From assembly GCF_000143965.1 (NCBI RefSeq), contig NC_014365.1, forward strand, positions 124,001 through 188,000: a stretch of DNA of 64,000 nt. Reading direction: 5' to 3'. The translations under genes were made by a program, and so were the position numbers. The stretch is from Desulfarculus baarsii DSM 2075 (GTDB lineage: Bacteria > Desulfobacterota > Desulfarculia > Desulfarculales > Desulfarculaceae). The notes beneath the pieces were generated by a model, which saw only the letters and a list, made by a program, of their open reading frames with translations, searched no databases and was not told where the DNA came from. Positions 1,124 through 20,995 of the stretch are shown piece by piece (the first letter of the stretch is position 1; each line of letters starts with the position of its first letter).

Positions 1124-1151
1124 GTATCCACAAGTTTGCGGACGGCTTTGG

Positions 1152-1261: not shown

Positions 1262-1270
1262 TGATATAAC
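1262..1270 (+). promoter_or_regulatory. Extended -10 element before the small gene at 1343
   Basis: TGaTATAAC, a good extended -10 with 5 of 6 matches to TATAAT, is followed by an AT-rich stretch. The predicted start of transcription is near 1277, about 65 bases before the chosen start codon. Confidence 0.5.
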
Positions 1271-1342
1271 GGATTAATTGCGTACAGAACATTTGGCATG
1301 CTTGCTGCAAAGATTAACGGCAACCCCAAATCGGAGCGCCAA

Positions 1343-1627: not shown

Positions 1628-1635
1628 GCGCGTTT

Positions 1636-2946
1636 TCAGCGCCGGCCGAAACGCTTGGCGTTTTCGATCAGCGCGGCCACCGGGGCCAAGCCGTAGGGCG
1701 AGCGTTCCTCGATGGCCTTGAGCACGCTGCCGCCGCCGGTAAAGAAATAGTATTGCGCATCGTCGAGCACCGAGAGGTACAACCCCGGGCAGAGGTCTTT
1801 GAACTCTTGCAGGGTGTCGCCGCCGCCGTATAGTTTTTTGGCCTGGCGGTTGGCGTCGATTGTCGTGTCCAAGGCCTGGCTGCCGCTGGTGAAGTGGGGG
1901 GTGAAGCCCATCACGGCGTTGACGAAGATCGTGCGGGCCTGGCCCAGGGCCTCGCGCACGGCCGGGTCGTCGAAGCTGGCCGCGTCGATATCCAGCACGT
2001 AGCCCAGGTGACGGCCGGGGGTCAATTCACTCAGCGGGATGGTGCGGAAGGCCCCTTCCTGGCGGCCCAGCACATCGCTTTCGACGATCAGCGGCAGCTC
2101 GACGATCTTGCCGGCGGCCTTGTCCTTTCGCACCAGTTCGCCGGCGGCGGCGATGTCTTCCTCGGCCACGCCCTGGATGCGCACGCCGTATTTGGCGCAC
2201 AGATAGGTGTTGTAGATCACCCCGCCCAGGATCAGCTTATCCACCTGGTCGTAGAGGGCGTTGATCGGGCCGATCTTGGTGTCGTACTTGGCCCCGGCCA
2301 CCACGGCCACGAAAGGCCGGGCCGGTTCGAGCACCTCGGCCAAGTGGCGGATTTCGGCCTGCAGCAGCCAGCCGGCGTAGGAAGGCAGGTGCTGGGTGAT
2401 GTCGACGGTGGAGGCGTGGGCCTGCCAAGAGCCAAAGGCGTCGTTGACGAAGATGTCGGCCAGGCCGGCCAGTTGCAGGGCAAAGGACTGGCGCTCGGGG
2501 CCCTTGCTTTCCTCGCCGGTGAACCAGCGGGTGTTGGGCAGATAGATGCCGGCGACCTCGCCGGCGCGCAGGCGTTTGATGGCCAGGTTGATGCTGGTGT
2601 CGATGGCCTGGATGCCCTGGGGGCCGGCGGGCAGGCTGGGCACCAGGAAGCGGCTGTGCAGCTTGCTTTCCAGGTAATCGACGATGGCGTCGACGGCTGA
2701 ATCGGGGCCGGTGTTGATCACGCCGGCTTTTTTGTCGAGGGGCCGGCCCACGTGGGTCATCAGGATGGGCCGGCCGCCGCGCACGACGATGTCGAACAGC
2801 GTGCCCAGGGTGCGGTCGATGCGGAACGGATCGATGATGCGGCCTTTTTTGACCACGTTGTGATCGAAGCGCACCAGCACGACCTTGCCTTGCAGGTCGG
2901 CGTCTTGCAGCAGGGGCAGGCCGGGGTGCGAGCCGTGGATGGTCAT
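1636..2946 (-). CDS. pgk: Divergent phosphoglycerate kinase
   Basis: The 436-residue protein aligns with phosphoglycerate kinase (ATP + 3-phosphoglycerate to 1,3-bisphosphoglycerate) along its whole length. Visible family blocks are the N-terminal VRFDHN (25-30, normally RVDFNVP), THVGRP (64-69), NTRWF (138-142), FVNDAFGSWQAHAST (166-180), AGAKYDTKIG (217-226), then GGGDT and TGGGS near the C-terminus. The normally near-invariant NGPMGVFE block reads NAVMGFTP. At 436 residues it is longer than the usual 390-400. GGAGG in the minus strand just before the ATG supports the start. An extended -10, TGcTACAAT, lies at 3008-3016. It is probably a second, specialised copy, because the substitutions are unusual for the housekeeping enzyme. 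Confidence 0.85.
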   Translation of the reverse strand: MTIHGSHPGLPLLQDADLQGKVVLVRFDHNVVKKGRIIDPFRIDRTLGTLFDIVVRGGRPILMTHVGRPLDKKAGVINTGPDSAVDAIVDYLESKLHSRFLVPSLPAGPQGIQAIDTSINLAIKRLRAGEVAGIYLPNTRWFTGEESKGPERQSFALQLAGLADIFVNDAFGSWQAHASTVDITQHLPSYAGWLLQAEIRHLAEVLEPARPFVAVVAGAKYDTKIGPINALYDQVDKLILGGVIYNTYLCAKYGVRIQGVAEEDIAAAGELVRKDKAAGKIVELPLIVESDVLGRQEGAFRTIPLSELTPGRHLGYVLDIDAASFDDPAVREALGQARTIFVNAVMGFTPHFTSGSQALDTTIDANRQAKKLYGGGDTLQEFKDLCPGLYLSVLDDAQYYFFTGGGSVLKAIEERSPYGLAPVAALIENAKRFGRR

Positions 2947-3007
2947 GGCGGTCCTCCGCGGGGTTGGGGGGATGATTTTGCCGGCCGTGACGGCCTGATT
3001 GCTAAAT

Positions 3008-3016
3008 ATTGTAGCA
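3008..3016 (-). promoter_or_regulatory. Extended -10 promoter of pgk
   Basis: The minus strand reads TGcTACAAT, with a weak TTTGGC at a 16-base spacer. The 12 bases ATATTTAGCAAT that begin inside and follow this -10 recur exactly downstream of the dnaJ-class gene promoter. Confidence 0.6.
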
Positions 3017-3057
3017 GGGCGCGGCCACGGCCAAACGACAATTGCGCGGCGGGCGGT

Positions 3058-3633
3058 TCAAAGGCCGGCGGCGGCCTTGGCCTTGGCGGTCAACGCGCCT
3101 AGGAAAGCGGCCTTGGCCTTGGTATAGGCGATGCGGTCGGCGGCGTAACGTTTGGCCAGGGTCAGCTTGAGCCGGGCGTAGCGTTTGGCCTCGGCGGGGT
3201 TTTCGCGGAGGTAATCGCGGGCCAGCAACCAGTCCCACTGGGGGAAATGGGCCTCGATCAGGTGGATGTGGTGGGTGCGGCGACCGGCGGCGTCGCGCTT
3301 GATGAACCAGGCGTAGTAAGGCGGCGTGTCGTCGCCGAAGCTGGGTCGCCAAAAGTAATCATAACCCTGGGCCTCCAGAATCGGCGCGACGACATCCCTG
3401 GCCGAGGCGGGGCCTGGCGTCAGGGCCAGGATGTCGATGATCGGCTTGGCCGGCAGGCCGGGCACGGCGGTGCTGCCGCAGTGGCTGAGGCGATCGATGG
3501 CGCCGTCGGGCAGGCAGGCCAGCAGGTGGGCCTTTTCCCGGGCGAAGAGCGCGGGCCAGCGGGGATCCGGGTCGACGATTTCCACTGGTTCGGCCACCAC
3601 GCGGGCGATTTTCTGGCGCAGTTGTTCGTCCAT
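3058..3633 (-). CDS. GrpB-family (UPF0157) protein
   Basis: The 191-residue product belongs to the GrpB/UPF0157 family, nucleotidyltransferase-fold proteins of largely unknown function. Diagnostic stretches are the N-terminal VEIVDPDPRWPALFAREKAHL, the HCGSTAVPGLPAKPIIDI block (the glycine-serine and aspartate of the nucleotidyltransferase fold) and the THHIHLIE segment. The ATG at 3633 is preferred over a TTG at 3642; neither has a strong ribosome site. Some members are fused to dephospho-CoA kinase in actinobacteria, but here the protein stands alone. It follows the lipoprotein gene on the same strand after an intervening hairpin. Confidence 0.85.
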   Translation of the reverse strand: MDEQLRQKIARVVAEPVEIVDPDPRWPALFAREKAHLLACLPDGAIDRLSHCGSTAVPGLPAKPIIDILALTPGPASARDVVAPILEAQGYDYFWRPSFGDDTPPYYAWFIKRDAAGRRTHHIHLIEAHFPQWDWLLARDYLRENPAEAKRYARLKLTLAKRYAADRIAYTKAKAAFLGALTAKAKAAAGL

Positions 3634-3660
3634 GGTCGGCAAGCGCTGGCCCGTGCGCGC

Positions 3661-3687
3661 GGGAGGCGGTTTTGGCGACCGCCTCCC
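3661..3687 (-). terminator. Hairpin terminator after the lipoprotein gene
   Basis: A perfect 10-bp stem, GGGAGGCGGT at 3661-3670 with its complement at 3678-3687, closes a 7-base loop 25 bases downstream of the lipoprotein stop. There is no U-tract, so it may act only as a 3' stabiliser. Confidence 0.5.
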
Positions 3688-3712
3688 GGCGTGTCATGCG
3701 TTCGATGGCTCT

Positions 3713-4696
3713 TTATTTACCGCGCCCACGGCCGGCCTTGCCCTTGTCGAGCTTGAGGGCCTTGGGCTTATGATCGTAGCCGGCCTCACCGATCAAGTCA
3801 ATGAAGACCTCCTTGCCGTCGGGGCCGAAGCTCTCGACAAAGGCGGCGTAGATGATGCCCAGGTTGTTGCCCGGCACGTCCTTGAGGGCCGGCTTGGTGC
3901 GACGCAGCAGGTCGATCAGTTCGTCGCGCTTGATGAGGTTGGTCTTGTAACGGCGGCCCCATTCGTCGCCCATGACCTTGAAGGTCTGGTGATATATTTC
4001 GGTCTTGAGCGACTGGGGGCTGGGGATGTCCAGCGCGCCCAGGGCGCGGCCTTTGCTGTAATCGAGGTAAAGCACCGTGCCGCCTTCGGAGGTCTGGGTC
4101 ATCCACGAGCCGCTGCGCAGGATCTCCTGGGTGGCGTCATATTTCTGGCGATAGATCACGGTGAAGGCGTTGATGAAGTCCTCGCGGTCGGCCAGGGAGC
4201 CCTCGGAGATGAGCACGATGAAGATATCCACGGCGTTCTTGAGGGTGCAGGCCCAGCCTTCCTCGAAGGCGGTGATCACATCGACGAAGTTGCGCGAGGT
4301 GTATTCACCGATCTCCGCGGCGGCCTTGCGGATGTGCGGGCCCAACACCAGGTCGGCGATGCGGTCTTCGTAGCCCAGGCGGAAGCCCTTCTTGAAGGCC
4401 TCCTTGAGGTCGGAGTGGACCTTGAAGTAGTCGAGGTTGTTGGGGTCGATCAAGGCGTGGACAAAGCTCATGTCCAGGGGCGAGGTGGGTTTGGTGCCCT
4501 GGGCCCAGAGCTTTTTGCCCCAATATTTGCCGGCCTGCTCGTATGACTCCAACGTGCGGGCCAGGCGCGGCGATTCGTTTTGGCCCGCGTTGGCCATCTC
4601 CAGGCCCTTGCAGCCGGCCAAGCCCAAAATCAGCGGCAACATGACGATGCAGGCCAAAAAGCCAAGTCGTTTTCGCGTGATGAGCGAATATGCCAT
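3713..4696 (-). CDS. Predicted lipoprotein of unknown function
   Basis: The 327-residue product begins with a basic n-region (TRKR), a hydrophobic core and the lipobox LAGC, placing the lipidated cysteine at residue 29. Position +2 is Lys, not Asp. The mature part is mostly helical and soluble and ends with a very basic Lys/Arg/Gly-rich tail. I do not recognise the family. The start at 4696 is set by GGGAGA on the minus strand just upstream; a longer frame to 4813 lacks a site and would bury the signal peptide. It lies between the SDR gene and grpB-like gene but with separate spacing, and a hairpin follows it. Confidence 0.8.
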   Translation of the reverse strand: MAYSLITRKRLGFLACIVMLPLILGLAGCKGLEMANAGQNESPRLARTLESYEQAGKYWGKKLWAQGTKPTSPLDMSFVHALIDPNNLDYFKVHSDLKEAFKKGFRLGYEDRIADLVLGPHIRKAAAEIGEYTSRNFVDVITAFEEGWACTLKNAVDIFIVLISEGSLADREDFINAFTVIYRQKYDATQEILRSGSWMTQTSEGGTVLYLDYSKGRALGALDIPSPQSLKTEIYHQTFKVMGDEWGRRYKTNLIKRDELIDLLRRTKPALKDVPGNNLGIIYAAFVESFGPDGKEVFIDLIGEAGYDHKPKALKLDKGKAGRGRGK

Positions 4697-4899
4697 GTAA
4701 ATCTCCCCCGGCGTGGATGCGGTTTGCCCGAGCCGCCACGGTTGTTGAGGCGTTGGCGGCCTTGACAGGATTGTACTAAAAATCGTCTGAATTTGGGGCA
4801 TTGTAACCCGCACGCGGCCGAGGGGTCAATCACGCGCTTGGGTGCGGCGTCTGGCCGGCGGGGCGTTGGCGCGCGGCCCGCCTCCGCCGGCCTTTGGCG

Positions 4900-5667
4900 T
4901 CAGAGCGGCTGGGTGATGGTCGCGCCGCCGTCGACGACGATGGTCTGACCGGTGATGAAACGCGCGCCCTGGCTGGCCAGGAACAGCACCGGGTGCACGA
5001 TGTCCTCGACCTCGGCGATGCGGCCCAGGGGAATGGTGGCCTCTATCTTGCAGCGCAGCTCGTCGTTGCCCCAGAACGGCGCGCTGAAGCCGGTCTTGAC
5101 CATGGCCGGGGCCACGGCGTTGACCTGGACGTTGTGGGGGGCCAGTTCGGCGGCCAACACCTTGGTCAGCATCTCGACGGCGGCCTTGGCCACGCCGTAG
5201 ACGGTCATGGCCGGGGTGGCGATGCGACCGGCCACCGAGGATATGCTGACGATCTTGCCGGAGTTTTGCCCGCGCATGATCGCCGCGGCCTTGCGCGAGC
5301 ACAAAAACGCGCCGTCCAGGTTGCTCTGGATGATCTTGGACCACAGGCCGTAGTCCAGGTCGGCCAATTGCGGCGACATCAGGTTCATGCCCACGTTGTT
5401 GACCAAAATGTCGAGCCGGCCGAATTTTTCGACGACGGCGGCGAACATGGCCTCGACCTGATCTTCCTTGGCGATATGGCAGGCCAGGGCCAGGGGTTGG
5501 CCGTCGATTGCCTGGGCCGCCTCGTCCAGGGTCTGCTGTTTGCGGCCGCAGATGACGACGTTGGCGCCCTCGGCGGCCATGGCTTGGGCCACGCCCAGGC
5601 CGATGCCCCGGCTGCCGCCGGTGATCAGGGCCACTTTGCCGTCCAGGCCGTATTTGATCTCGCTCAT
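4900..5667 (-). CDS. SDR-family oxidoreductase (FabG-like)
   Basis: This 255-residue classical short-chain dehydrogenase/reductase uses NAD(P)H to interconvert a carbonyl and an alcohol. Visible features are the TGGSRGIG nucleotide loop (16-23), NNVG (90-93), the catalytic Ser144, Tyr157 and Lys161 (YxxxK), and the C-terminal FITGQTIVVDGG. The overall look is that of 3-oxoacyl-ACP reductase or glucose-dehydrogenase-type SDRs; the substrate cannot be read from sequence. GGAG precedes the ATG at 5667. The gene is divergent from phosphoglucomutase and is followed by about 200 bases before the lipoprotein gene. Confidence 0.9.
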   Translation of the reverse strand: MSEIKYGLDGKVALITGGSRGIGLGVAQAMAAEGANVVICGRKQQTLDEAAQAIDGQPLALACHIAKEDQVEAMFAAVVEKFGRLDILVNNVGMNLMSPQLADLDYGLWSKIIQSNLDGAFLCSRKAAAIMRGQNSGKIVSISSVAGRIATPAMTVYGVAKAAVEMLTKVLAAELAPHNVQVNAVAPAMVKTGFSAPFWGNDELRCKIEATIPLGRIAEVEDIVHPVLFLASQGARFITGQTIVVDGGATITQPL

Positions 5668-5822
5668 GGGCAGTCTCCGTTGGTTGATGGGTCAAGAAAA
5701 ACCGCGCGGGGCGCGGGCCGGCTTCGCCTTGGTAAGAGCATTATCCACGGGCCGGGGCCCAAGCTCAAGGCCTGTCGGCGACGCGGACGTGGCTTGGCCT
5801 GGACAAACTCGTCACCGGGGTG

Positions 5823-5861
5823 TGGCAAAACTTGCCAAAAAGCGAAAATGCCTGCTAACCT
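5823..5861 (+). promoter_or_regulatory. pgm promoter with inverted repeat over the -35
   Basis: TTGCCA (5832-5837), an 18-base spacer and the extended -10 TGcTAACCT (5853-5861) form a plausible sigma-70-type promoter. The -35 is the right arm of an inverted repeat TGGCAA-AAC-TTGCCA (5823-5837), which could be a repressor operator. Transcription would start about 77 bases before pgm. Confidence 0.5.
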
Positions 5862-5944
5862 CAATGAGATGATGTCGACTTTCCCGAGGATTGGCCGGGC
5901 GTTCGCGCCACGCCGCCCTCTCCCCCCAACGCGAGGACGAGAAC

Positions 5945-7591
5945 ATGCATCCATTGGCGGGCAAACCAGCGCCCAGGGAGATCCTGATCGACACGCCGCG
6001 GCTGGTCAGCGCCTACTACACCCTGCGCCCCGAGGCCGACGACCCGGCCCAGCGCGTGAGCTTCGGCACCAGTGGCCACCGGGGCTCGTCTTTGGATGGC
6101 GCCTTCAACGAGGCCCACGTGCTGGCCATCAGCCAGGCCATCGCCGAGTACCGCGCCGGCCGGGGCATCGATGGCCCCTTGTTCATGGGCATCGACACCC
6201 ACGCCCTCAGTTGGCCGGCCTTTGTCACGGCCCTGGAGGTCTTCGCCGCCGCCGGCGTGACCACGATGATCCAGGACGGCTTTGGCCACACGCCAACCCC
6301 GGTGATCAGCCACGCCATCGTTTGCCACAACCGGGGCCGCGCCGACCACCTGGCCGACGGCGTGGTGATCACGCCCTCGCACAACCCCCCGGCCGACGGC
6401 GGCTTCAAGTACAACCCGCCCCACGGCGGCCCGGCCGACACGGCCGTCACCAAGTGGATCGAGGACCGCGCCAACCAGATCCTGGCCGACGGCCGCCGCC
6501 AGGCGCGACGCGTGGATTTCGCCAAGGCCCTCAAGGCCGACTGCGTCGTGCGCCACGACTACATCGGGCCCTACGTGGCCGATCTGGCCAACGTCGTCGA
6601 TCTGGAGGCGGTGGCCCAGGCCGGGCTCAAGCTGGGCGTGGACCCGCTGGGCGGCTCGACCCTGGCCTTTTGGGAGCCCATCGCCCGGCGTTATGGCCTG
6701 GACCTGGAGGTGGTCAACCCGGTGATCGACCCCACCTTCGGCTTCATGACCGTCGACAAAGACGGCAAGATCCGCATGGACTGCTCCTCGCCCCAGGCCA
6801 TGGCCGGCCTGATCCAGCACCGTCAGAGCTTCGACGTGGCCTTTGGCAACGACCCCGACGGCGACCGCCACGGCATTGTCACCCGCCAGGCCGGGCTGCT
6901 CAACCCCAATCATTATCTGGCCGTGGCCATCGGCTATCTTTTCGCCCATCGTCCGGGCTGGCCGGCCGGCGCGGCCGTGGGCAAGACCCTGGTCAGCAGC
7001 TCGATGATCGACCGCGTGGCCGCCGAGTTGGGCCGGCCACTCAAGGAAGTGCCGGTGGGTTTCAAGTGGTTTGTCGACGGGCTCATCGACGGCGGCTACG
7101 GCTTTGGCGGCGAGGAGAGCGCCGGGGCCTCGTTCCTGCGCCGCGACGGCGCGGCCTGGACCACCGACAAGGACGGCCTGATCATGGACCTGCTGGCCGC
7201 CGAGATCACCGCCCGCACGGGCAAGGATCCGGCCCAGCTCTACGCCGAGCTGACCCAGCGCCACGGCGACCCGGTCTACCAGCGCAGCGACGCCCCGGCC
7301 AGTCGCGAACAAAAGGCCGTCTTGGCCAAGCTTTCGCCCGAGATGGTCCCGGCCGACGAGCTGGCCGGCGAGCCCATCCTGGCCAAGCTGACTCACGCCC
7401 CCGGCAACGGCGCGGCCATCGGCGGGCTCAAGGTCGTCACGCAAAACGGCTGGTTCGCCGCCCGGCCCTCGGGCACCGAGGACATCTACAAGATCTACGC
7501 CGAGAGCTTCAAGGGCCGGCAACATCTGGCCCAGATCCAGCAAGAGGCCCAGGAAATCGTCGGCCAGGCCCTGGCCCGAGCCGGGGCCTGA
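5945..7591 (+). CDS. pgm: Phosphoglucomutase (alpha-D-glucose-phosphate specific)
   Basis: The 548-residue enzyme interconverts glucose 1-phosphate and glucose 6-phosphate for glycogen and nucleotide-sugar metabolism. It matches E. coli Pgm (546 residues) from end to end: TSGHRG at 42-47, the phosphoserine loop TPSHNPP with Ser145, the metal loop DPDGDR at 303-308, GEESAG for sugar binding, and the C-terminal RPSGTED phosphate loop. The ATG at 5945 is preceded by a purine-rich GAGGACGAG. The sodium symporter gene starts 6 bases after the stop, so the two may be cotranscribed, although the functions are not obviously linked. Confidence 0.95.
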
Positions 7592-7597
7592 ACGGCC

Positions 7598-9079
7598 GTG
7601 GCCGGCGAAATCTGGGGCTCGCGCGCCGGGTTCGTGCTGACGTGCATCGGCGCGGCGGTGGGCCTGGGCAACATCTGGCGCTTTCCCTACATGGCCTACC
7701 AAAACGGCGGCGGCGCTTTTTTGCTGCCCTATTTTTTCGCCGTGCTCACCGCCGGCCTGCCGATGATGATGCTGGAGTTTTCGCTGGGCGCGCGCACGGG
7801 CCAGACCGCGCCCCGGGCCATGGCCTGGCTGGGGCGCTGGGGCTGGCTGGGCTGGTGGCAGGTGGGGCTGCTGTTCATCCTGGCGACGTACTACTCGGTG
7901 GTGGTGAGCTGGTGCCTGTGCTACGTGGTGGTGGCCGTTTTCCAGGGCTGGGGCGGCGACGCCAACGCCTTTTTCTACGGCCGCTTTCTGGAGCTGGGCG
8001 CGTCGGGCTTCGACTTCGGCCGCTTTCGCTGGCCGATCTGGGGCGCTTCTTGCGCCTGCTGGGCCCTCTGCGCCGGGCTGACCTACCTTGGTTTGCAGCG
8101 GGGCCTGGCCCGGGCCAACCGGCTCATGCTGCCGCTGCTGCTCGGGCTGACCCTGTTCATGATCGGGCGGCTGCTGCTGGCCCCCGGCGCGCTGGAGGGC
8201 GTCAACTGGCTGTTCGAGCCCGATTTCGCCAAGCTGGCCAGCATTGACGTGTGGATATCCGCCTATGGCCAGGTGCTTTTTTCCACCAGCGTGGCCGTCT
8301 CGGCCCTGATCACCTACGCCAGCCGCCTGCCCAAGGGCTCCGACATCAACAACAACGCCGCCGTCACCGTGCTGACCAACTCGGGCTTTGACATGCTGGC
8401 CGGGGTGATGATCTTCGCGGCGCTGTGCATGATGGCGGCCAAGACCGGCCAATCGCTGGACAAAGTCGTCGATTCGGGCATCAGCCTGGCTTTCGTGACC
8501 ATCCCCGCGGCCCTCGACCTGACGCCCGCGCCGCGGCTGCTGGGCGTGTTGTTCTTTCTGGCGCTGTGCTGCGCGGGGCTCAGCTCGCTGGTGGCCATGG
8601 TCGAAGGCGTGGCCGCGCCGCTGAAGGATATCGTTGGCCTGGGCCGGCGCAAGGGGGCCATGCTGGTCTGCCTGGCTGGCCTGGCCGGCGGCACGGCCTT
8701 CGCCTTTGGCGACGGGCTGCGCCTGCTGGGCGCGGTGGATGGTGTGGTCAGCAACATCGGCATGACCTCGGGCGCGTTGTTGGAGGTGGTGGCGGCGGCC
8801 TGGTTCAGCGGCAAGCTGGGCCAACTTTGGCGTTCGGCCAACGCGGTTTCCGATTTCCCCGTGGGCGCGTGGTGGCTGTTCTGCCTGCGTTTCGTGACGC
8901 CGCTGTTTTTGGGGTTATTGTATATTTTCAACATAATCGAAAAAGTGCGGGAATACATCGCCGGCGGCCAGGACGCCGGCTTGATCGCCTGCGGCTGGGC
9001 GGCGTTGCTGGGCGCGCTGGCCTGGGCCCTGTGGCGGCAAAGCCGCGACGCCTCGCCGGGCCGGGAGTCCGCGCGATGA
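7598..9079 (+). CDS. Sodium-dependent NSS-family transporter (MetP-like)
   Basis: This 493-residue integral membrane protein belongs to the neurotransmitter:sodium symporter family. The first segment carries the hallmark GAAVGLGNIWRFPY unwound-helix motif for sodium and substrate binding, and about 11-12 hydrophobic helices follow. A GTG start at 7598 lies 6 bases after the pgm stop without a strong ribosome site, suggesting translational coupling. The stop overlaps the start of a 42-residue MetS-like membrane protein (ATGA), which is the arrangement of the MetPS methionine/alanine importer described in Corynebacterium. An amino-acid substrate is therefore likely. Confidence 0.9.
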   Translation: MAGEIWGSRAGFVLTCIGAAVGLGNIWRFPYMAYQNGGGAFLLPYFFAVLTAGLPMMMLEFSLGARTGQTAPRAMAWLGRWGWLGWWQVGLLFILATYYSVVVSWCLCYVVVAVFQGWGGDANAFFYGRFLELGASGFDFGRFRWPIWGASCACWALCAGLTYLGLQRGLARANRLMLPLLLGLTLFMIGRLLLAPGALEGVNWLFEPDFAKLASIDVWISAYGQVLFSTSVAVSALITYASRLPKGSDINNNAAVTVLTNSGFDMLAGVMIFAALCMMAAKTGQSLDKVVDSGISLAFVTIPAALDLTPAPRLLGVLFFLALCCAGLSSLVAMVEGVAAPLKDIVGLGRRKGAMLVCLAGLAGGTAFAFGDGLRLLGAVDGVVSNIGMTSGALLEVVAAAWFSGKLGQLWRSANAVSDFPVGAWWLFCLRFVTPLFLGLLYIFNIIEKVREYIAGGQDAGLIACGWAALLGALAWALWRQSRDASPGRESAR

Positions 9080-9204
9080 GTCTGGGGGCGATCATCACCA
9101 TGGTTTTGGGCTTGACCATAACCTGGGGCGGGGTGGCGTGGTGCCTGCGCCGGGCCATCAAGGCGAGCCCGCGCCGCCGCGCGCGCCGGAGCGACCAGTC
9201 ATGA
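9076..9204 (+). CDS. MetS-like small subunit of the NSS transporter
   Basis: This 42-residue protein is easily missed. It has one hydrophobic helix (about residues 3-26, with GLTITWGGVAW) followed by a strongly basic tail (RRAIKASPRRRARR), the layout of MetS, the obligate small partner of the MetP sodium:amino-acid symporter. Its ATG overlaps the transporter stop (ATGA at 9076-9079), and its own stop overlaps the start of the next gene (ATGA at 9201-9204). The double coupling argues that it is translated. Confidence 0.8.
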   Translation: MSLGAIITMVLGLTITWGGVAWCLRRAIKASPRRRARRSDQS

Positions 9205-9893
9205 AGCAGATCGACGAATTGGCCGTGGCCAGCGGCAGCGGCGCCATCAACGACCCCAAGCAACTGGCCGCCGCCCTGCGCGTGGGCCATCAGGTGATGA
9301 TCCAGAAGCAGGGGGCCAACGCCAGGTTCCGCGCGGTCATCGTCGGCTGGAGCGACGACCGCTACGTCATCGCCGAACTACCCCGCAGCCAGACCATCAG
9401 CGGCCACGTGGCCGCCGGCGACGAACTGGTGCTGCGCTACATCCTGCGCGGGGTGGTTTACGCCTTTGTCTGCCGGGTGATGCATGTCGCCTTCGACCCT
9501 TCGCTGGCCGTGCTGGCCTGGCCCGGCGGCATGAGCGCCCTGCCGCTAACCACCGAGCGCCGCCTGAGCGTGCAGATTCCGGCCACCATGGAGATCGACT
9601 CCGAGGAGACCGGCGGCGTGACCCTGCTGGCCACGGTCACCGACGTTTCCAGCGGCGGCTGCCAGGTGGAGGCGGTGACCGTGGGCGGCCCGGCCCTGAA
9701 CATGGACCAGGGCGTCCGGGCCAAGCTGCGCCTGTCGCTGGTCGGCAACCGCCGTGAAAAGACCGTCGAAACCGAAATCCGCAACGTCATGGTCAGCGCC
9801 GGCAAGGTTATCCTGGGCATGAGCTTCGTGGACAACGCCGGCCTGGACCTGCGCGAGCTGGCCGAGGAGTTTTTCAGCGCCGGCGGCCAGTGA
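9201..9893 (+). CDS. PilZ-like (YcgR-type) protein lacking the RxxxR motif
   Basis: The 230-residue soluble protein has an N-terminal YcgR-like beta domain (about 20-110, ending in VVYAFVCRVMHV) and a C-terminal PilZ-like domain (about 115-225). PilZ proteins bind cyclic di-GMP through RxxxR and (D/N)xSxxG. The second motif is present as DVSSGGC, but the first region reads TERRLSVQIP, with Val or Gln where the second Arg should be, so binding may be lost or altered. The ATG at 9201 overlaps the stop of the MetS-like gene, so it is the third cistron of the transporter operon, an unexpected partner for an amino-acid importer. Confidence 0.8.
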   Translation: MKQIDELAVASGSGAINDPKQLAAALRVGHQVMIQKQGANARFRAVIVGWSDDRYVIAELPRSQTISGHVAAGDELVLRYILRGVVYAFVCRVMHVAFDPSLAVLAWPGGMSALPLTTERRLSVQIPATMEIDSEETGGVTLLATVTDVSSGGCQVEAVTVGGPALNMDQGVRAKLRLSLVGNRREKTVETEIRNVMVSAGKVILGMSFVDNAGLDLRELAEEFFSAGGQ

Positions 9894-9901
9894 GGCCTTG
9901 G

Positions 9902-9931
9902 CGGCCGCGCGCCCGCCAAGGCGCGCGGCCG
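9902..9931. terminator. Hairpin between convergent genes
   Basis: A 12-bp stem CGGCCGCGCGCC (9902-9913) pairs with GGCGCGCGGCCG (9920-9931) around a 6-base loop, in the 50-base gap between the PilZ-like gene and the oppositely oriented binding-protein gene. It lacks a U-tract and could serve both directions. Confidence 0.55.
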
Positions 9932-9943
9932 TTGAAGCATGCC

Positions 9944-10903
9944 TCAGCGCAGGGCCCAGAGCCACTTGCCGACGATTTGCGGCCGTTCGATGACGCTGGA
10001 GTCGATGTAGAGCGGCAGGCAGTAGACCGGCGTCCGGCCCAGCTCGGGGTGCTTGGCCACGGTGGCGGCCAGGGCCTTTTGCACGGCCGCGCCGTCGCCG
10101 GTGATGACGATGGCCTGGGGCTGGATCGTGGCCAGGGCGTCGAGTTTGCGGATGGTCACGTGGCCCTTGTCGGGCGTCTGGCCTTTGGGGACAAGCCCAT
10201 CGCCCACGTTCTGGCAGCCCAAGGGCCCGAGGATGAACTTGTCGGAGTAGCCGCCGGGCGTCTCCACGCGGATGAAAGTCTTTGTCGTTTCAGGCTGATA
10301 GACGCCGTTGAGCACCACCACCCGCTTGCCGGGCTTGCCTTGGGCGATCTTGGCCTCCAGATCGGCCGAAGCCTTGGCGTAGGTGGCGGCCAGGGCCTGG
10401 CCGGCCTTTTTCTTGCCCAGCAGGGCGGCCGTCTGGACGATGGCCCCCTCGATCCCCTTGGAAAAATCGACATACTCCACCTTGACGTCGAGGCCCTTCA
10501 GGGCCGGGGCCACGTCGGTGGGTTTGACGTCGGGCTTGAGGATGCAAAAGGGGTCGGACTTTTCGATGATCACCAGCTTGACGTTGTTTTCGTTGATGAA
10601 ATCGATGAGGTTGTCCTGCTTGGCGTTGATCAGGCACTCCGGGCAACCCAGCGGCTTGGCCAGCATTTTTATCTTGTCGCACAGGGGCCAGATGGAACAT
10701 CTCACGCCCATGGCCGCCGGGTAGACGCCCAGGTTGTAGGCGATATCCACCACGCGGTCGCCAATGACGACGATGTTTTGCTTTTCCAGCTTGTGCCAGA
10801 CGCCGGCGGCCAGGGCCGCGCCGGCGCTGGCCAACAGCAGCGCGGCGCTCATGGCCAGGATCAGATGGATTTTCGCAACGTGTTTGGCGCGGTTGAAGCG
10901 CAT
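9944..10903 (-). CDS. Cysteine-rich periplasmic binding protein
   Basis: The 319-residue product has a cleavable signal peptide (about 1-33) and the layout of a class-III (BtuF/FepB-like) periplasmic binding protein: VVIGDRVVDIAYNLGV near the start, a central long helix and a second lobe. Unusually for a solute-binding protein it has cysteines at 69, 75, 87, 90 and 120, including a CPEC pair, which suggests metal or haem ligation. AAGGAAG precedes the ATG. It is the last gene of a TonB-receptor/membrane-protein/binding-protein set. No ABC permease or ATPase lies nearby. The ligand is unknown; a metal chelate, corrinoid or haem would fit. Confidence 0.75.
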   Translation of the reverse strand: MRFNRAKHVAKIHLILAMSAALLLASAGAALAAGVWHKLEKQNIVVIGDRVVDIAYNLGVYPAAMGVRCSIWPLCDKIKMLAKPLGCPECLINAKQDNLIDFINENNVKLVIIEKSDPFCILKPDVKPTDVAPALKGLDVKVEYVDFSKGIEGAIVQTAALLGKKKAGQALAATYAKASADLEAKIAQGKPGKRVVVLNGVYQPETTKTFIRVETPGGYSDKFILGPLGCQNVGDGLVPKGQTPDKGHVTIRKLDALATIQPQAIVITGDGAAVQKALAATVAKHPELGRTPVYCLPLYIDSSVIERPQIVGKWLWALR

Positions 10904-10922
10904 TCCCTTGCTTCCTTTCGCC

Positions 10923-10956
10923 CCGGCCCGGCGCGTTTGGCCGCGCGCCGGGCCGG
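10923..10956 (-). other. Long intercistronic hairpin
   Basis: A perfect 13-bp GC stem (10923-10935 with 10944-10956) around an 8-base loop lies in the 100-base gap between the small membrane-protein gene and the binding-protein gene. It may set relative transcript levels by attenuation or by protecting one mRNA segment. Confidence 0.5.
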
Positions 10957-11005
10957 AGCCACGTGATGAAAAACAAATCCGGGCCCCGCGGGGCGGCCGG
11001 GTTGA

Positions 11006-11599
11006 TCAGCCTGTTTGTTGGGTCAGTTTTTCGCTGGGCGAGAGCAACGTCTTGCCCACGTTGTGGATAAACAGCAGGCACGAAACCAGCAACATGGCCC
11101 CGCCGACGACCACCACCTGCTTGACCCCGCCGGCGATGGCGCGAAACTCCGGGCTGCCCTCGGAAAAACCGCTGGGGATGGCCACCACGCCCACCAGATG
11201 AAAGCCAATCGCCAGCGTGAGCACGCCCATCACCTGCAAGACCAGGTTGCCCAGGCAGAGCGGGGCCCGGTAACGGTTGCCGCCCTTGACGGCCTCGGCC
11301 GCGAAGTAGAACAGGCCCATCAGCCCGGTGGTGGCCCAGCCGACCAGGGCCACATGCACGTGGATCTTGCTGACGAAATTGCCGAAAAACGGCTTGATGT
11401 GCCGTGGCTCCAGGCCCAGTACGAAGGCGTAGAACTCCTGGAAGGCGAACTTGGTCGGGTGCATCAGGCCCTCGATGGTGCCCATGGCGAAAAAGAGCAT
11501 CGAGGCCAGCATGAAGCGGATGGCGGTGGTTTTGCCCAGGCTCGTTTGCGTCATCGCGCGCGCGCTTTCGGTCTGATCGACGTTGGTTAGAGTTCCCAT
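11006..11599 (-). CDS. Small haem-copper-oxidase-like membrane protein
   Basis: The product (197 residues from 11599, or 182 from the ATG at 11554) has about five hydrophobic helices. The segment KIHVHVALVGWATTGLMGLFYF resembles the histidine-bearing helix of the CcoN/NorB/subunit-I superfamily, and short stand-alone relatives exist. Only one helix pair is conserved, so it cannot be a terminal oxidase; a haem-binding membrane protein is more likely. If the 11599 start is used the gene overlaps the end of the TonB receptor gene by 13 bases, so the three genes probably form one operon. The role is unknown; electron delivery to a transported metal complex is one idea. Confidence 0.7.
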   Translation of the reverse strand: MGTLTNVDQTESARAMTQTSLGKTTAIRFMLASMLFFAMGTIEGLMHPTKFAFQEFYAFVLGLEPRHIKPFFGNFVSKIHVHVALVGWATTGLMGLFYFAAEAVKGGNRYRAPLCLGNLVLQVMGVLTLAIGFHLVGVVAIPSGFSEGSPEFRAIAGGVKQVVVVGGAMLLVSCLLFIHNVGKTLLSPSEKLTQQTG

Positions 11600-13512
11600 C
11601 TGAAGCCCAGGTAGACAAAGGCCGGCTGAATGTCGTAGGCGGCGACCTCGGTGTCGAAGATGTTTTTCATGCCGGCGTAGACCTGGGTGTTGGCCCAGAG
11701 GTCCTTGCCCAGCCAGGCGTCCAGGGTGGTGTAGTCGTCCAGCGAGCCGCCCAGGCCGTCCTCGGCCCCCGAGAACCAGTTGAAGGCCACGCGCGCCCGC
11801 AGGCCCAGGGGTTTGATGCTCCACTGGGCGTTGAGGTTGCCCTTGAACTCGGGCTGATCGGCCAACTGCTCGCCGGTCTGCTTGTTTTCGGTTTTCATGT
11901 AGGTGGCGCCAGCGCCCAGCCGCCAGCCGCAGGGCAGGTTGATGGCGGTCAACAACTCCAGGCCGCTGGTCTCGGCCTGGGCGATGTTTTCGTACTTGTA
12001 GGTGTTTTTCAGCGAACTGCCCGAACCGCGCGAGGACTGCAACACCGCCTCGATCAGGTCGTCGATGTCGTTATGAAAATAGGTCAGCTCCACATCCAGG
12101 CCCCGCGAGACGTCCAGGCTGCCCTGCAAGCCGATCTCGTAGGTCTGGGAGGTTTCCGGTTGCAGATCCTTGTTGGGCAGATAAGTGTCCTTGCCGCGCC
12201 GTTGATAGGTGGTCACGTAAAGCTCGTTGGCGATGGGCGCGCGGAAGCCGTGGCCGTAGCTGGCCTTGATGCGGGCGTAGTCGGTGAGGGCGAAGCTGGC
12301 GGCCACGCGGGGGCTCCACTCCGAGCCGAACTCGCTGTGATCGTCCACGCGCAGGCCGGCCACCAGGTTAAGGCGCTCGAAGAAGACCATGTCCACCTGG
12401 CCGAAACCGGCCTTGTTTTCGCTGTCGTACTCGGGCGAGACGTTGTCGGCGCCCCGCGAGTCCTCGCGCAGCTCGCCGCCCAGGGTGGCCGTGGCGAAGT
12501 CGGCGATCCTGGCCGAAAAGCGCCCTTCGTACTGGGTGCGCTCGTACTCCTCGTTGGTCAGATAGTAGGGGTCGGTGACGCGGGGGGTCAGGTCGATGTC
12601 GGTTTTGTACTTGGACTGATAGGCCTGGAGAAAAACGCCGTAGCGCTCGGCGAACGTGCCGTCGTAGTTGACGAAAATCTCGCTGTTGACGTCGGTGGCG
12701 TCGCGGTCGGTCAGGGCGTTCTGGATATCGCGCAGGCCCTGGCGCTTGAAGTCGTTGTAATAGCCGCCCAGGCTGAGGGCGTGATGCTCGCCCAGGTCCA
12801 CGGCGGCCTGGCCCGAAACATAGCCCTGCTTCAGGTCGTCGCCGTCGTCGGGGGCCACGCCGTCGTAATCCCAGCCGTTCTGGCCGCGGTAGGCCCCGCC
12901 GACGATAAAGCGAAACGGCGCGACGCCCAAGCCGGCGTAAGCCTGGGGCAAGACCTCGTCGCCGCCGCTGTGGGTGTTGGTCCCCACCTTGACATCCGCG
13001 CCGGCCACGGTTTTTTCCTTGGGCGGCTTGCGGGTGATGATGTTGACCACGCCGCCCAGGGCGTCGCTGCCAAACAGGGCCGACGACGGCCCGCGCACGA
13101 TCTCGATGCGCTCGATCATCGTCACGGGGATCTGGTTCAGGTCGGCCAGCCCGCGATAGCCCGGGGCCATGCGCCGGCTGTCGATGAGCACCAACGTGTG
13201 CAACGGCCCCGCGCCGCGGATCGACGGGCTGATCACGCGGCCCGATTCGCTCTCCAACACCAGGCCCGTGACCTCGCTCAGGGCCTGCGACACCGAGTCG
13301 GCGCCCATCATCTGGATCTGGGCCTGGTCCACCACCTGGATCGAAGCCGGGGCCCGCGAAAGCTTCTGCTCCGCCAAAGTGGCCGACACAACCATCGGTT
13401 CAAGCGTTTCGGCGTTGGCGCCAGGCCCGGCCTGATCGGCCAGGCCTGGGCCGGCGGCCAGGGCCAGGCACGCCGCCCCGGCCAGCATCGCCGTAATCAT
13501 CGATTTTCGCAT
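11587..13512 (-). CDS. TonB-dependent outer-membrane receptor
   Basis: The 641-residue protein has a signal peptide (about 1-25), a likely TonB box (ETLEPMVVSAT, about 35-45), an N-terminal plug with SIRGAG and RIEIVRGPSSALFGSDALGGVVNIITR, and a C-terminal beta-barrel ending in the aromatic-terminated FVYLGFRWEL. It resembles the BtuB/CirA/colicin-receptor group that imports corrinoids or catecholate siderophores. The ATG at 13512 is preceded by GGAGAG; earlier in-frame ATGs at 13527 and 13569 are possible. The 3' end overlaps the small membrane-protein gene. A very AT-rich upstream region with two 11-base direct repeats suggests tight regulation. Confidence 0.93.
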   Translation of the reverse strand: MRKSMITAMLAGAACLALAAGPGLADQAGPGANAETLEPMVVSATLAEQKLSRAPASIQVVDQAQIQMMGADSVSQALSEVTGLVLESESGRVISPSIRGAGPLHTLVLIDSRRMAPGYRGLADLNQIPVTMIERIEIVRGPSSALFGSDALGGVVNIITRKPPKEKTVAGADVKVGTNTHSGGDEVLPQAYAGLGVAPFRFIVGGAYRGQNGWDYDGVAPDDGDDLKQGYVSGQAAVDLGEHHALSLGGYYNDFKRQGLRDIQNALTDRDATDVNSEIFVNYDGTFAERYGVFLQAYQSKYKTDIDLTPRVTDPYYLTNEEYERTQYEGRFSARIADFATATLGGELREDSRGADNVSPEYDSENKAGFGQVDMVFFERLNLVAGLRVDDHSEFGSEWSPRVAASFALTDYARIKASYGHGFRAPIANELYVTTYQRRGKDTYLPNKDLQPETSQTYEIGLQGSLDVSRGLDVELTYFHNDIDDLIEAVLQSSRGSGSSLKNTYKYENIAQAETSGLELLTAINLPCGWRLGAGATYMKTENKQTGEQLADQPEFKGNLNAQWSIKPLGLRARVAFNWFSGAEDGLGGSLDDYTTLDAWLGKDLWANTQVYAGMKNIFDTEVAAYDIQPAFVYLGFRWEL

Positions 13513-13592
13513 CTGACTCTCCACCATGATCCAAAGAAAGTGCGGTTGTTCATGGCGGTTTGTTATCATCGAAAGAATATGATTTCCACAAA

Positions 13593-13622
13593 AAAATAAA
13601 TATTACCAAACAAAATAAATAT
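13593..13622 (-). repeat. Tandem 11-base direct repeats upstream of the TonB receptor gene
   Basis: On the minus strand ATATTTATTTT occurs twice, with a 19-base period (plus coordinates 13612-13622 and 13593-13603). They lie about 80-110 bases before the receptor start in an AT-rich island that contrasts with the surrounding GC-rich DNA. The spacing, close to two helical turns, fits a dimer-pair regulator site. Confidence 0.5.
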
Positions 13623-13689
13623 AAACTAATTTCCCTAGCGAACACATCGCCTATGCGGTGCTTTTGCCGGGAAGGGCCAGCAGATTAGC

Positions 13690-13980
13690 CTAAAAATTTA
13701 GTGTGGATGCTGGCGGCGCGAAGCGCCGGGCCAAGCGGCGGGAGGAGGCGACGGCCAGGGCCGCCAACGAAAAAGCGGGCCGTTGTCGTCGACGGCCCCG
13801 GGAACGCGCGAAAACGGCGTTGAGATCCGCCTGCCACCAATCCAGTTCGTCGTCGAGCGACCAATAGGCGTCGGCCCTGACGCCCGTGTTGGTTTAGACG
13901 TAGTCGTCGACCTCGCGGTTGTCGTAGCTCAGATAGCGGACGGCGGAATCCAGGGCCAGGCCGAACTGGCCCGTTGGGGG
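13690..13980 (-). pseudogene. Remnant of an outer-membrane beta-barrel protein gene
   Basis: Reading the minus strand directly after the stop of the acylase gene, the frame gives GQFGLALDSAVRYLSYDNREVDDYV, then a TAA stop at 13894-13896, then TNTGVRADAYWSLDDELDWWQADLNAVF and a basic tail ending at 13690. The alternating strand pattern and YDNREVDDY resemble the C-terminal repeats of beta-barrel outer-membrane proteins of the BBP2 or EpsL type. There is no start codon or ribosome site, and an in-frame stop interrupts it, so it is a decayed fragment. The rest of the gene is missing. Confidence 0.55.
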
Positions 13981-14014
13981 TGGCCCTTGGGCGTGTGGCG
14001 CGCGCGGCGGCCGG

Positions 14015-17149: not shown

Positions 17150-19972
17150 ATGGACCAATCGCAAGAGGCATTGGCCGAACAACTGCGCCTGGCCAAAGAG
17201 AAAATAGCCGAGTTGGAGCGCCGCCTGGGCCAGGAGGAATCGCTTTTCCGCCAGGCCGTGGATCAGTCGCCCCTGGGCTTTTGGCAATGCCAGGCCAGCG
17301 GGCTCAAGGACGCGCTGGCCGCGCTGTGGCCCGGCTCCGAAGAGGGCCTGCGTCAACGCCTGCGCCAAGAGCCCGCCGCGCTGGACGGCCTGCTGGCCGC
17401 CTGTCGGCTGGCCCATGTCAACGAAACGGGCCTGCGCCTTTTTCAATCGCCCAGCAAAAAAGATTTCGCCCGCAACTTCAAACAGCTACTCAGCGTCCAC
17501 TCCCGCGAGGCCCTGATCGAATCCCTGGCGGCCATGGCCGCCGGCCGGGCCAACATGCTGCTGGAGACCAGCGTCCACGATCGCATGGGCCAAAAACGCC
17601 ACATCTCGCTGTTCTGGACCATCCCCGCCGCCCACGCCCACGACTGGTCGCGCCTGATGATCACCGTCGCCGACCAGACCACGCGCAAGGCCGCCGAGGA
17701 GGCCCTGCGCGAAAGCGAGCGCCGCTACCGCGTCTTGTTCCATGAAAGCCCCAACGTCATGTGGCTGGTGGACCCGGCCGACGGCGCGATCATCGACGTC
17801 AACCAGGCGGCCTGCGATTTCTACGGCTACCGCCGCCAGGAACTGCTGACCATGCGCGTCGGCCAGATCAACACCATGGGCGACCAAAGCCTGAACGCGG
17901 CCATGAGCGACGCCGTGCTGGGCGGCCAGAAGCGCTTCGAGTTTCGCCATCGCCTGGCCAACGGCCAAATCCGCGACGTGGAGGTCTACGCCGGGCCGAT
18001 CACCCTCGATCATCGCCGGCTGATCTACTCCACCGTCTACGACATCACCGCCAACAAGCAGGCCCTGGAGGCCCTCAAAAAGGCCGAAAACGACTATCGC
18101 GGCATCTACGAAAACTCCCAGGCCGGCATCATGCGCTCCTCGCCCGACGGTCGCCTGCTGGCCGCCAACCCGGCCATGGCCCGCATCTTCGGCTACCCCG
18201 ACGCCCAGACCATGGTCGCCGAAGTCGTCGACACCGCTCGCCAGCTCCACGCCGACCCGGCCCAGCGCCCGCTGTTGCTGGAGCGGCTGGAGCGCGACGG
18301 CCAGGTGCGCGATTATCTATTGCGCGCCCGCCGCCGCGACGGTTCCTTGGTCTGGTGCAGCGTCAACATGCGGGCCGTGCGCGAAAATGACGGCCGCCTG
18401 AAGGTCATCGAGGGCTTTGTCGAGGACGTCAGCGAAAGCGTCGAGGCCAAGGAGGCCCTGGCGCGCAGCGAGGCCCTCTACCGGGCCATCGTCGACAACT
18501 CGCTGTCGGCCATCTACATTTTTCAAGACGACGTCATGGTTTTCGTCAACCGCGCCTTTTGCCAGATGCTGGGCGCGGCCGAGCCCAGCCAGGCCCTGGG
18601 CCATCCGTTCTGGAAGTATATCCACCCCGCCGACCGCCAGTGGGTGGCCAACCGCGCCCGCCGCCGCGCCGAAGGCGAGGACATGCCGCCCCATTACGGT
18701 TTCCGTTGCGTGCGCCTGGACGGCTCGGTGATCTGGGTGGACATGCAGGCGGTGCGCATCGAGTATCAGGGCCGGCCGGCCGTGCTGGGCAACCTCATCG
18801 ACATCACCGAACGCAAGCTGCTCAACGAAAAACTGGCCCAGGCCCAAAAGATGGAGGCCGTGGGCACCCTGGCCAGCGGCATCGCCCACGATTTCAACAA
18901 TATTTTGCAAACCATCGGCAGCTACGTGCAGGTGGGCGCCGAAAATTGCGCCCCCGGCCCGGACAACGACGGCTGGCTCGGCCAGATCGACAGGGCCGTC
19001 GAGCGCGCCGCCGACCTGATCAACCGTCTGCTGGCCTTCAGCCGCAACATCCAGCCCCAGCTCCGGCCGGTCAACCTCAACGACGAAGTGACCCAGACCC
19101 TGCGCATCCTCGAACGCACCCTGCCCAAAATGATCCGCCTGGAAACGAACCTGGACCCCGACTTGCCCCTGATCAACGGCGACGCCATCCAGTTGGAGCA
19201 AGTCATCGTCAACCTGGCCGCCAACGCCCGCGACGCCATGCCCGACGGCGGCCGCCTGAAAATCAAGACCGCCGCCGTCGAGTTGGGCAAGGAATTCTGC
19301 GCCACCCGGCCGGGCCTGCGGCCCGGGCCCCACGTCATGCTCAGCGTCCGCGACAGCGGCCCCGGCATGGATCAAGCCATCCTCGAACAGGCCTTCGACC
19401 CCTTTTTCAGCACCAAGGAGATTGGCCAGGGCGTGGGGCTGGGCCTTTCGCAGGTCTACGGCACGATCAAAAACCACCACGGCCATATCGAGTGCGAAAG
19501 CGCCCCCGGCCAGGGCGCGCGGTTTGCGATCTACCTGCCGACCCTGATCGACGCCCCGCTGGAGGCCTCCCCGGCCCCGCGGCCGGCGCTCGAACCACCG
19601 GCCGGCCACAACGAAACGGTGCTCCTGGTCGACGACGAAAAGGCCATCCTGGAGGTGGGCCGGCACATCCTCGACGAAAACGGCTACGCCGTGCTCTGCG
19701 CCGAAAGTGGCGAGCGGGCCCTGGAGTTGCTGGCGGCCAACCCCCACGTGGCGCTGGTGGTGCTGGATCTGGGCATGCCGGGCATGGGCGGGCGCAAGTG
19801 CCTGGAAGAGATCAAAAAAGGCCGGCCCGACCAGCGGGTGATCGTGGCCAGCGGCTACTCCGACGACGGCAACCGCCAGCAGGCCCTGGCCGCCGGGGCC
19901 GCGGCCTTTCTGCCCAAGCCCTACCGCCTGCCCGAGTTGCTCAGACTGGCCCGCCAGGTGCTCGACGGCTAG
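17150..19972 (+). CDS. Cytoplasmic PAS-rich hybrid histidine kinase
   Basis: The 940-residue protein starts with a short coiled coil and a degenerate PAS-like region (about 1-185), then three PAS domains (about 190-305, 315-430, 440-550), a HisKA domain with the phosphoacceptor His580 in GIAHDFNN, a HATPase domain (N-box [25 protein letters not shown]) and a receiver domain with the phosphoacceptor Asp873 ([10 protein letters not shown]). No membrane segment is present, so it senses an internal signal such as redox state or a small ligand. No output regulator gene is adjacent. Its stop codon shares CTAG with the stop of the convergent plsC gene. Confidence 0.95.
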
Positions 19973-20727
19973 CCGGCGGCGGAGGCGACTTGGCGCTGGT
20001 CGTCGAACCGCTCGTCGGGCGGGTGGCCCAAAAGCTCCTGCACGGCCCGCCGGGTGGCTTGGGCCAGGCCTTCCAGATCGCCGGGGGCGAAGATCGTCGG
20101 GTCGACGGGCGGGCCGATGCGCAAATCGATGACGCCACTTTCGGGCAGCAGCGCGCCGGGCTTCATCAGGTCGGCCGAGCCGCTGATGGCCACCGGCACG
20201 ATGGGCCGGCCGGCGGCCTCGGCCAGCAAAAACGCGCCCTTGCGGAAGGGCAGCAGATGCTCGGGGGCGCGGTTGCGCGTACCCTCGGGGAAAATCACCA
20301 CCATGGCCCCGTCGCGGATTTTTTGCGCGCCGGCCTGCAAAAGCTTGGCCGTGTTGCCGGCCTTGGCCCGCGAAACCGGGATGTGCACCATGCGCAGGTG
20401 CCAGCCGATGAAGGGAACCTTCAGCAGCGAGGCCTTGGTCACCCAGCAGACGTCGCCGGGCAGCCCGGCCAGCACCACGGCGATGTCGGCCGCCGATTGA
20501 TGGTTGGAGGCCACCACGAAGCCGCCGCCGTCGCGGGGCAGGTTTTCCAGGCCGCTGACGCGCAGCCTGAAGCCGGCCATCCCGCACAGGCCCTTGCCCC
20601 AGGCCCGGGCGAACCAACGGGCCCCCCGCGGCCAGAACAACCCGGTGATCATCGACAAAAGGCCCAGCACGGACGTGCTGAGCACGAAGCCCGTGGCTTG
20701 CAACGCCTTCTTGAGAAAAAGTGGCAT
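19969..20727 (-). CDS. plsC: 1-acyl-glycerol-3-phosphate acyltransferase (PlsC family)
   Basis: The 252-residue membrane-associated enzyme transfers an acyl group to lysophosphatidic acid in phospholipid synthesis. It has one N-terminal hydrophobic helix (about 13-31), the catalytic NHQSAAD motif (His76, Asp81), the WVTKASLLKVPFIG block and FPEGTRN for phosphate binding. The ATG at 20727 gives a normal PlsC length; an in-frame ATG at 20799 would add 24 basic residues and cannot be excluded. The C-terminal stop overlaps that of the histidine kinase gene on the other strand. Confidence 0.9.
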   Translation of the reverse strand: MPLFLKKALQATGFVLSTSVLGLLSMITGLFWPRGARWFARAWGKGLCGMAGFRLRVSGLENLPRDGGGFVVASNHQSAADIAVVLAGLPGDVCWVTKASLLKVPFIGWHLRMVHIPVSRAKAGNTAKLLQAGAQKIRDGAMVVIFPEGTRNRAPEHLLPFRKGAFLLAEAAGRPIVPVAISGSADLMKPGALLPESGVIDLRIGPPVDPTIFAPGDLEGLAQATRRAVQELLGHPPDERFDDQRQVASAAG

Positions 20728-20908
20728 CGATTTCGCGCCCCGCCCGATCGGTTTTTCGCCCAAAAAAAGCCACGGCCGAAGAAATTTCACAAGCAACATT
20801 ACTTATTGAACGGGCCTCAGGCAAGGCCATTTTTACGATCGGACAAAGTCGAAAGGGCGTGGCCGCCGTCATGACATTTAATTTGGCCGATTGGCCGCCC
20901 GCCGCTAT

Positions 20909-20917
20909 TGTTATAAT
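20909..20917 (+). promoter_or_regulatory. Extended -10 promoter of the second histidine kinase
   Basis: TGtTATAAT is a perfect extended -10. TTGGCC at 20891-20896 could serve as a weak -35 at a 15-base spacer. Transcription would begin near 20924, about 72 bases before the ATG at 20996. Confidence 0.7.
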
Positions 20918-20995
20918 CACGAATAGAATTTTCGTTGTTCGCGCAACCACCATCGGCCGGCCCACCGCCGGTTTCGTCGCGCCTGGGGTTTGGCC

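Follow-up and report, generated by a model that had tools for sequence, protein, structure and literature searches.

In Pseudomonas, the FpvGHJKCDEF proteins release iron from pyoverdine in the periplasm through the action of binding proteins and a membrane reductase (PMC6954188). In Bacteroides, the XusABC operon combines a TonB receptor with an inner-membrane reductase and has no dedicated ATP-binding cassette (ABC) permease (PMC13142918). Small membrane cytochromes are also encoded beside iron transport genes, and binding of haem b has been shown for a DUF4405 protein and for FezC (PMC10979944). Additionally, there is a precedent for a TonB receptor plus the Feo route in S. maltophilia (PMC9047314), and delta-proteobacteria have been reported to carry feoAB in many copies but no siderophore ABC transporters (PMC545781). 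The acquisition of iron from complexes by strict anaerobes is poorly known. Here, we describe a three-gene set of the sulfate reducer Desulfarculus baarsii, of which we found no description in the open-licence literature and which offers a concrete, testable route from a TonB receptor to FeoB. The set lies in a window of 64,000 nucleotides (positions 124001-188000 of contig C1, the only contig of a genome of 3,655,731 bases), where the three genes that an earlier note on this DNA had pointed out, coding for a TonB receptor, a small membrane protein resembling haem-copper oxidases (HCO) and a binding protein, are indeed present, all of them on the minus strand (Table 1).

Our preferred interpretation, to which we give about even chances, is that this operon is a TonB-fed system for periplasmic iron acquisition and release that has no ABC permease of its own, and in which the HCO-like protein, as a putative haem protein, would give the electrons. 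Release in the periplasm is favoured because a membrane protein occupies the place of a permease, HCO-like and binding domains are fused at some loci, and iron genes recur in the neighbourhood. The HCO fold, the invariant histidines, the constant adjacency of the TonB receptor, the absence of an adjacent permease and the loss of docking acids were counted as further support.

The membrane protein carries the HVHxxLVGW helix described in the earlier note (HVHVALVGW, residues 65-73), although it is slightly shorter than the roughly 190 residues given there. Its match to PF00115 (COX1; E = 8.6e-6) is under the Pfam cut-off. When a profile of 13 family members was compared with the PDB, it matched residues 384-499 of the ba3 oxidase, that is, helices X-XII (E = 2.7e-8), cbb3 CcoN (E = 1.3e-5) and residues 48-155 of NorB, which span helices I-IV and include the haem-ligand region of helix II (E = 7.6e-8). 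The fold of HCO subunit I is pseudo-three-fold symmetric and, thus, simultaneous matches to helices X-XII of ba3 and I-IV of NorB are as expected for a single repeat. An AlphaFold2 model consists of four long helices (predicted local distance difference test, pLDDT, 88.7), and its best Foldseek matches are again cbb3, ba3 and NorB, with a probability of 1.00, a template-modelling score of about 0.6 on the query and E-values of about 0.01 and above. Judged from its sequence and its predicted structure, the protein corresponds to a single four-helix repeat of the HCO subunit I fold.

Seven residues (E28, K35, K54, H65, H67, N103 and H119) are invariant across the 13 members. Of these, H65 and H67 form the helix X-type HxH haem-ligand motif of the HCO superfamily, with H65 aligning to ba3 His384 in the profile comparison. 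With four membrane helices in place of the twelve of a catalytic oxidase or NO reductase, the protein lacks the ligands that helices VI-VII provide for the catalytic metal, and Pfam gave no PepSY match in it. The model would most simply place both termini in the cytoplasm, an orientation behind which the loop-charge bias is modest, and the predicted helix limits would most simply put H65, H67 and H119 at a similar depth of the membrane, nearer its periplasmic side. In the 395 genomes of the phylum that were searched, true members score above 270 bits and the next best sequences, which are full-length oxidase subunits, reach at most 52 bits, so the family is a distinct one. Small HCO-like proteins of 139 residues score under the full-length subunits in these genomes; one such stand-alone protein (L107:1360-1779) lies near a gene for a full-length oxidase subunit, and similar small frames occur in many genomes of the phylum. 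As the D. baarsii genome has no other PF00115-like sequence, the protein is not part of a respiratory oxidase. The possibility that it is a remnant of a full oxidase was also rejected, considering this same absence and the conservation of its key residues.

The binding protein has an apparent signal peptide and is a distant member of PF01497 (E = 1.3e-4, under the curated cut-off). Its family profile matches IsdE (E = 1e-7) and FeuA (E = 4e-5) in the PDB, and the AlphaFold2 model of a homologue, the L037 fusion discussed below (pLDDT 91.3), is about equally close to haem and siderophore binding proteins; both profile and model thus support the PF01497 fold. The five cysteines listed in the earlier note (69, 75, 87, 90 and 120) are exact, and Cys230 and Cys295 are found in addition. 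By contrast, the suggestion that these cysteines hold a metal is not supported, as only Cys87, within a GCP motif, is invariant among the five in 34 homologues, in which the GDR motif, Trp72 and Glu114 are among the other invariant features. Cysteines 69, 75, 90 and 120 are commoner in HCO-linked binding proteins; for instance, Cys69 is present in 12/12 of these vs. 10/22 of the others, and Cys75 in 9/12 vs. 6/22. The conserved docking acid that marks each lobe of class III binding proteins is missing. The two positions vary in this family (N/K/D/E and D/A/T/K), whereas they are acidic in the FecCD-linked PF01497 proteins of the same genome, used as controls, and we take these acidic positions to be the permease-docking residues established for BtuF and FhuD. 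In agreement with the earlier note, the operon contains no ABC permease or ATPase. The genome encodes four FecCD permeases, and each has some other PF01497 protein as its neighbour, which speaks against the possibility, raised in the same note, that the binding protein belongs to an ordinary ABC system elsewhere.

Another doubt expressed there, namely that the three genes might rarely co-occur, is answered by surveys with the HCO profile, in which the HCO gene is accompanied by the other two. These surveys covered 395 genomes of the phylum, 63 of the class and 85 of another order (about 510 distinct genomes, Desulfobacterota). Strong HCO members were found in 3/297 phylum genomes, with the same three among the 395, in 4/63 of the class and in 2/85 of the other order, that is, seven genes in six genomes; the binding protein is present in 5/297 phylum genomes. 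A TonB receptor gene adjoins all seven HCO genes, and a binding-protein gene adjoins six of them (three of these were assigned by matching contig coordinates to loci L019, L020 and L024). At the seventh (L078), a DUF4405 cytochrome gene stands in place of the binding-protein gene. Among relatives, the operon is found in both Desulfocarbo indianensis and Dethiosulfatarculus sandiegensis. This recurrence of the gene order in other genomes, together with the match to ba3, makes the trio more than a chance arrangement. An in-frame TAG suspected in the second Desulfocarbo copy was ruled out, as the stop sits upstream of the start and not inside the gene.

Further loci were found by an alignment-based scan, after a single-sequence scan of the genome contigs had given no match. 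A GTDB-wide scan with the binding protein gave 33 loci, and the neighbour tally comprised 35. As these 35 were fetched through the binding protein, unbiased counts come only from the genome surveys described above; moreover, many of the loci come from metagenome bins, and errors in some of the taxon labels are possible. An HCO gene is present in 13/35, with a visible TonB receptor gene in 12 of the 13; in the remaining one (L032), the contig stops about 300 bases upstream. At L048, the HCO gene is reduced to a fragment that covers the HxH segment (5350-5655), between intact TonB receptor and binding-protein genes, as a result of either decay or an assembly error. In L032 and L037, the HCO and binding domains share one open reading frame. 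Between the domains lies a signal-like helix, possibly with a cleavage site, so the fusion product may be processed. Both fusions group together as sisters on the tree and may therefore derive from one event. The association with HCO requires five gains or losses on the tree and is clustered (0/500 shuffles gave as low a number). No match was found in a plasmid search with the HCO protein.

Regarding the iron neighbourhood, FeoB or an HMA_2 P-type ATPase is encoded in 13/35 loci. FeoB is present in the fetched stretches of 8/35 loci vs. about 0.4 expected (by a simple binomial that takes no account of relatedness, P is about 7e-9, and with generous rates it is 2e-6), and HMA_2-type ATPases, a neighbour family (F8) assigned by Pfam and putatively FezB-like, in 6/35. 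Genes for ExbBD, TonB and DUF4198 proteins are recurrent neighbours. The L078 stretch (722-13792), which is the second Desulfocarbo locus, encodes FeoAB, a TonB receptor, the HCO-like protein, a DUF4405 protein (PF14358, 58.8 bits), a putative FezB-like HMA_2 ATPase and a small FezC-like protein; no binding-protein gene was found beside its HCO gene. In D. baarsii, FeoAB, DUF4198 and two HMA_2-type ATPases are encoded at C1:615-630 kb, in what may be a ferrosome-like cluster (L073:4259-14926, corresponding to C1:619-630 kb).

In the mechanism that we propose, an iron complex, which could be a ferric chelate of siderophore type or a tetrapyrrole of haem type, would be imported into the periplasm by the TonB receptor and captured there by the binding protein. 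The HCO-like protein, held at the inner membrane next to the binding protein, would probably use H65/H67 and H119 to hold haem b in the half of the membrane that faces the periplasm, with these ligands coming either from one monomer or from different subunits of an oligomer. It would hand electrons, for which menaquinol is the most likely source, to the complex in the binding protein. Fe(II) released in this way would then enter the cytoplasm by FeoAB, and FezB-type ATPases may aid in its storage. Haem binding, the electron source, the reduction, FeoB as the exit and the nature of the ligand are steps that we infer; among iron, copper, nickel and cobalt, iron is the most likely metal. The earlier note had already suggested that a metal complex may be processed in the periplasm with the help of a membrane haem protein, and this part of its proposal fits the gene layout, the fusion, the iron neighbours and the loss of docking acids. 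We further propose, tentatively and as a possibility that falls short of probable, that the free-standing four-helix unit is a haem-b electron carrier for reductive iron release from the complex of a cysteine-bearing binding protein, possibly as a homo-oligomer that rebuilds a bis-His haem site across subunits. This would be a non-respiratory use of the HCO fold, and it might offer a model for the unit behind the origin of the pseudo-three-fold oxidase. If true, part of the HCO fold would serve iron uptake and not respiration, in an organism that has no haem-copper oxidase at all.

Several observations weigh against this interpretation. The FeoAB genes of D. baarsii are distant from the operon, and no consistent site was found when canonical and delta-proteobacterial FUR boxes were searched for upstream of 12 receptors. 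The binding protein occurs without an HCO gene in 22/35 loci, so the HCO-like protein is not always needed or is replaced by something else. Additionally, the sulfide of a sulfate reducer could reduce iron chemically. In five of the HCO-free loci (L029, L034, L035, L040 and L042), the binding-protein gene is preceded by that of a PF13557-type outer-membrane protein (family F17), which suggests an alternative outer-membrane route.

The strongest rival is a refinement of the proposed system in which the ligand is haem or another tetrapyrrole. The operon would then extract iron from haem anaerobically, with the HCO-like protein reducing haem for a dechelatase and no siderophore stripping. We consider this unlikely, although it has points in its favour. 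The solved folds nearest to the binding protein include the haem binders BhuT, HmuT and IsdE, but siderophore binders score alike in the comparison; the invariant Cys-Pro motif would also suit such a ligand. Haem receptors usually carry a histidine between the FRAP and NPNL boxes, but no conserved one is present there in the TonB receptors of these loci. Two loci with HCO genes encode, in or beside the operon, proteins of the tetrapyrrole methylase family (PF00590; L021:14414-15286, 156 bits; L037:8347-9282, 141 bits). That of L021 has an apparent signal peptide and, as an exported S-adenosylmethionine-dependent enzyme would be odd, it is perhaps a tetrapyrrole binder. Near the trio of L031, close to genes for an ExbB-like protein, DUF2162 and a TonB receptor, lies the gene of a CobN/Mg-chelatase family protein with an apparent signal peptide (17594-20998, 1034 bits), a possible counterpart in Desulfobacterota of HmuS, the haem dechelatase of the Bacteroides hmu operon (PMC12583661). 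Nevertheless, such tetrapyrrole genes are found in a minority of loci.

The PF01497 fold and the presence of four FecCD permeases in the genome could also mean that the orphan binding protein feeds one of these distant permeases in trans, the HCO-like protein being incidental. With all four permeases lying beside other PF01497 proteins, docking positions that are unconserved here but acidic in the FecCD partners, and the HCO and binding domains fused at two loci, we regard this as rather improbable. It is more improbable still that the HCO-like protein acts as the translocase and forms a channel for haem or an iron complex, with the binding protein docking onto it. Its polytopic nature, its position in the permease's place, its conserved Lys and Glu, and a fusion that would mirror those of binding domains with permeases could be cited for it; however, it has only four helices, a DUF4405 cytochrome stands in for the binding protein at one locus, and HCO folds act in electron transfer and catalysis and are not known to be transporters. 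Corrinoid uptake by a BtuB-like receptor and a BtuF-like protein seems the most remote of these explanations. The best NCBIfam match of the receptor is TonB-B12 (231.5 bits), followed by TonB-hemin (205 bits), but both lie far under their cut-offs (599.7 bits for TonB-B12), and the neighbours are iron genes. No cobalamin riboswitch was found in the window or before the trio in nine other loci, and the only one detected (L021:17877) is downstream, before other genes; the equivalog score and leading riboswitch expected of vitamin B12 uptake are therefore both missing.

The three genes of D. baarsii probably form a transcription unit by themselves, since a convergent PilZ-domain gene follows that of the binding protein and 445 bases separate the receptor gene from a penicillin-amidase-like gene upstream on the same strand. 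This gap (13570-14014) is partly AT-rich in a GC-rich genome and is likely the promoter region. A weak candidate FUR box lies within it; its pattern has three matches in the 64 kb vs. 0.51 expected, and none of the genome's three feoB regions gave a FUR box match. The receptor and HCO-like genes, which the earlier note described as overlapping or abutting, are 32 nucleotides apart with the start that we picked from homologues (11554); an alternative ATG upstream (11599) would make the latter overlap the receptor stop by 13 nucleotides. The HCO-like and binding-protein genes are 102 nucleotides apart. Both receptor domains score over the Pfam cut-offs (Plug, 90.5 bits; barrel, 163.8 bits). The signal peptide of the receptor probably begins with an internal Met, such as that at 13512.

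Table 1. Features of the operon, with positions counted from the first base of the window.
Feature	Position	Strand	Size or sequence	Basis or location
TonB-dependent outer-membrane receptor	11587..13569	-	660 aa as listed	Plug and TonB_dep_Rec barrel domains (Pfam)
Small HCO-like four-helix membrane protein	11006..11554	-	182 aa	PF00115 match, family profile, AlphaFold2, Foldseek
Exported PF01497-like (class III) binding protein	9944..10903	-	319 aa	PF01497 match, family profile
Weak candidate delta-proteobacterial FUR box	13574..13588	+	AGAATATGATTTCCA, 3 mismatches	Just upstream of the first receptor ATG

The layout, with a TonB receptor and a membrane protein but no permease in the operon, is of the FpvG/FoxB/XusC kind. 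As in the Fpv system, a TonB receptor would deliver the iron complex to a periplasmic binding protein and a membrane protein, here a putative reductase. However, FpvG is a reductase of the PepSY type and not HCO-like, iron leaves the Fpv system by an ABC transporter, and the Fpv binding proteins are different. With XusABC, the locus shares a TonB receptor and an inner-membrane protein (for which the role of reductase is proposed here) in one operon without a permease, but XusC is of the PepSY type and XusB is a surface lipoprotein instead of a periplasmic PF01497 protein. The binding protein has the fold of the class III proteins IsdE, BhuT and FeuA, and distant sequence similarity to IsdE and FeuA; it differs from them in its invariant GCP cysteine, its lack of conserved docking acids and the absence of a permease gene. 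Like FezC and the DUF4405 cytochromes of ferrosome and flavinylation loci, the HCO-like protein is a small membrane protein encoded beside iron genes, and a DUF4405 gene even follows the HCO gene in L078, but those cytochromes belong to another family (PF14358). Finally, it shares with HCO subunit I (ba3, cbb3 CcoN and NorB) one four-helix repeat with the HxH motif while lacking, in its 182 residues and outside any respiratory operon, the other eight helices, the CuB ligands and the catalytic site.

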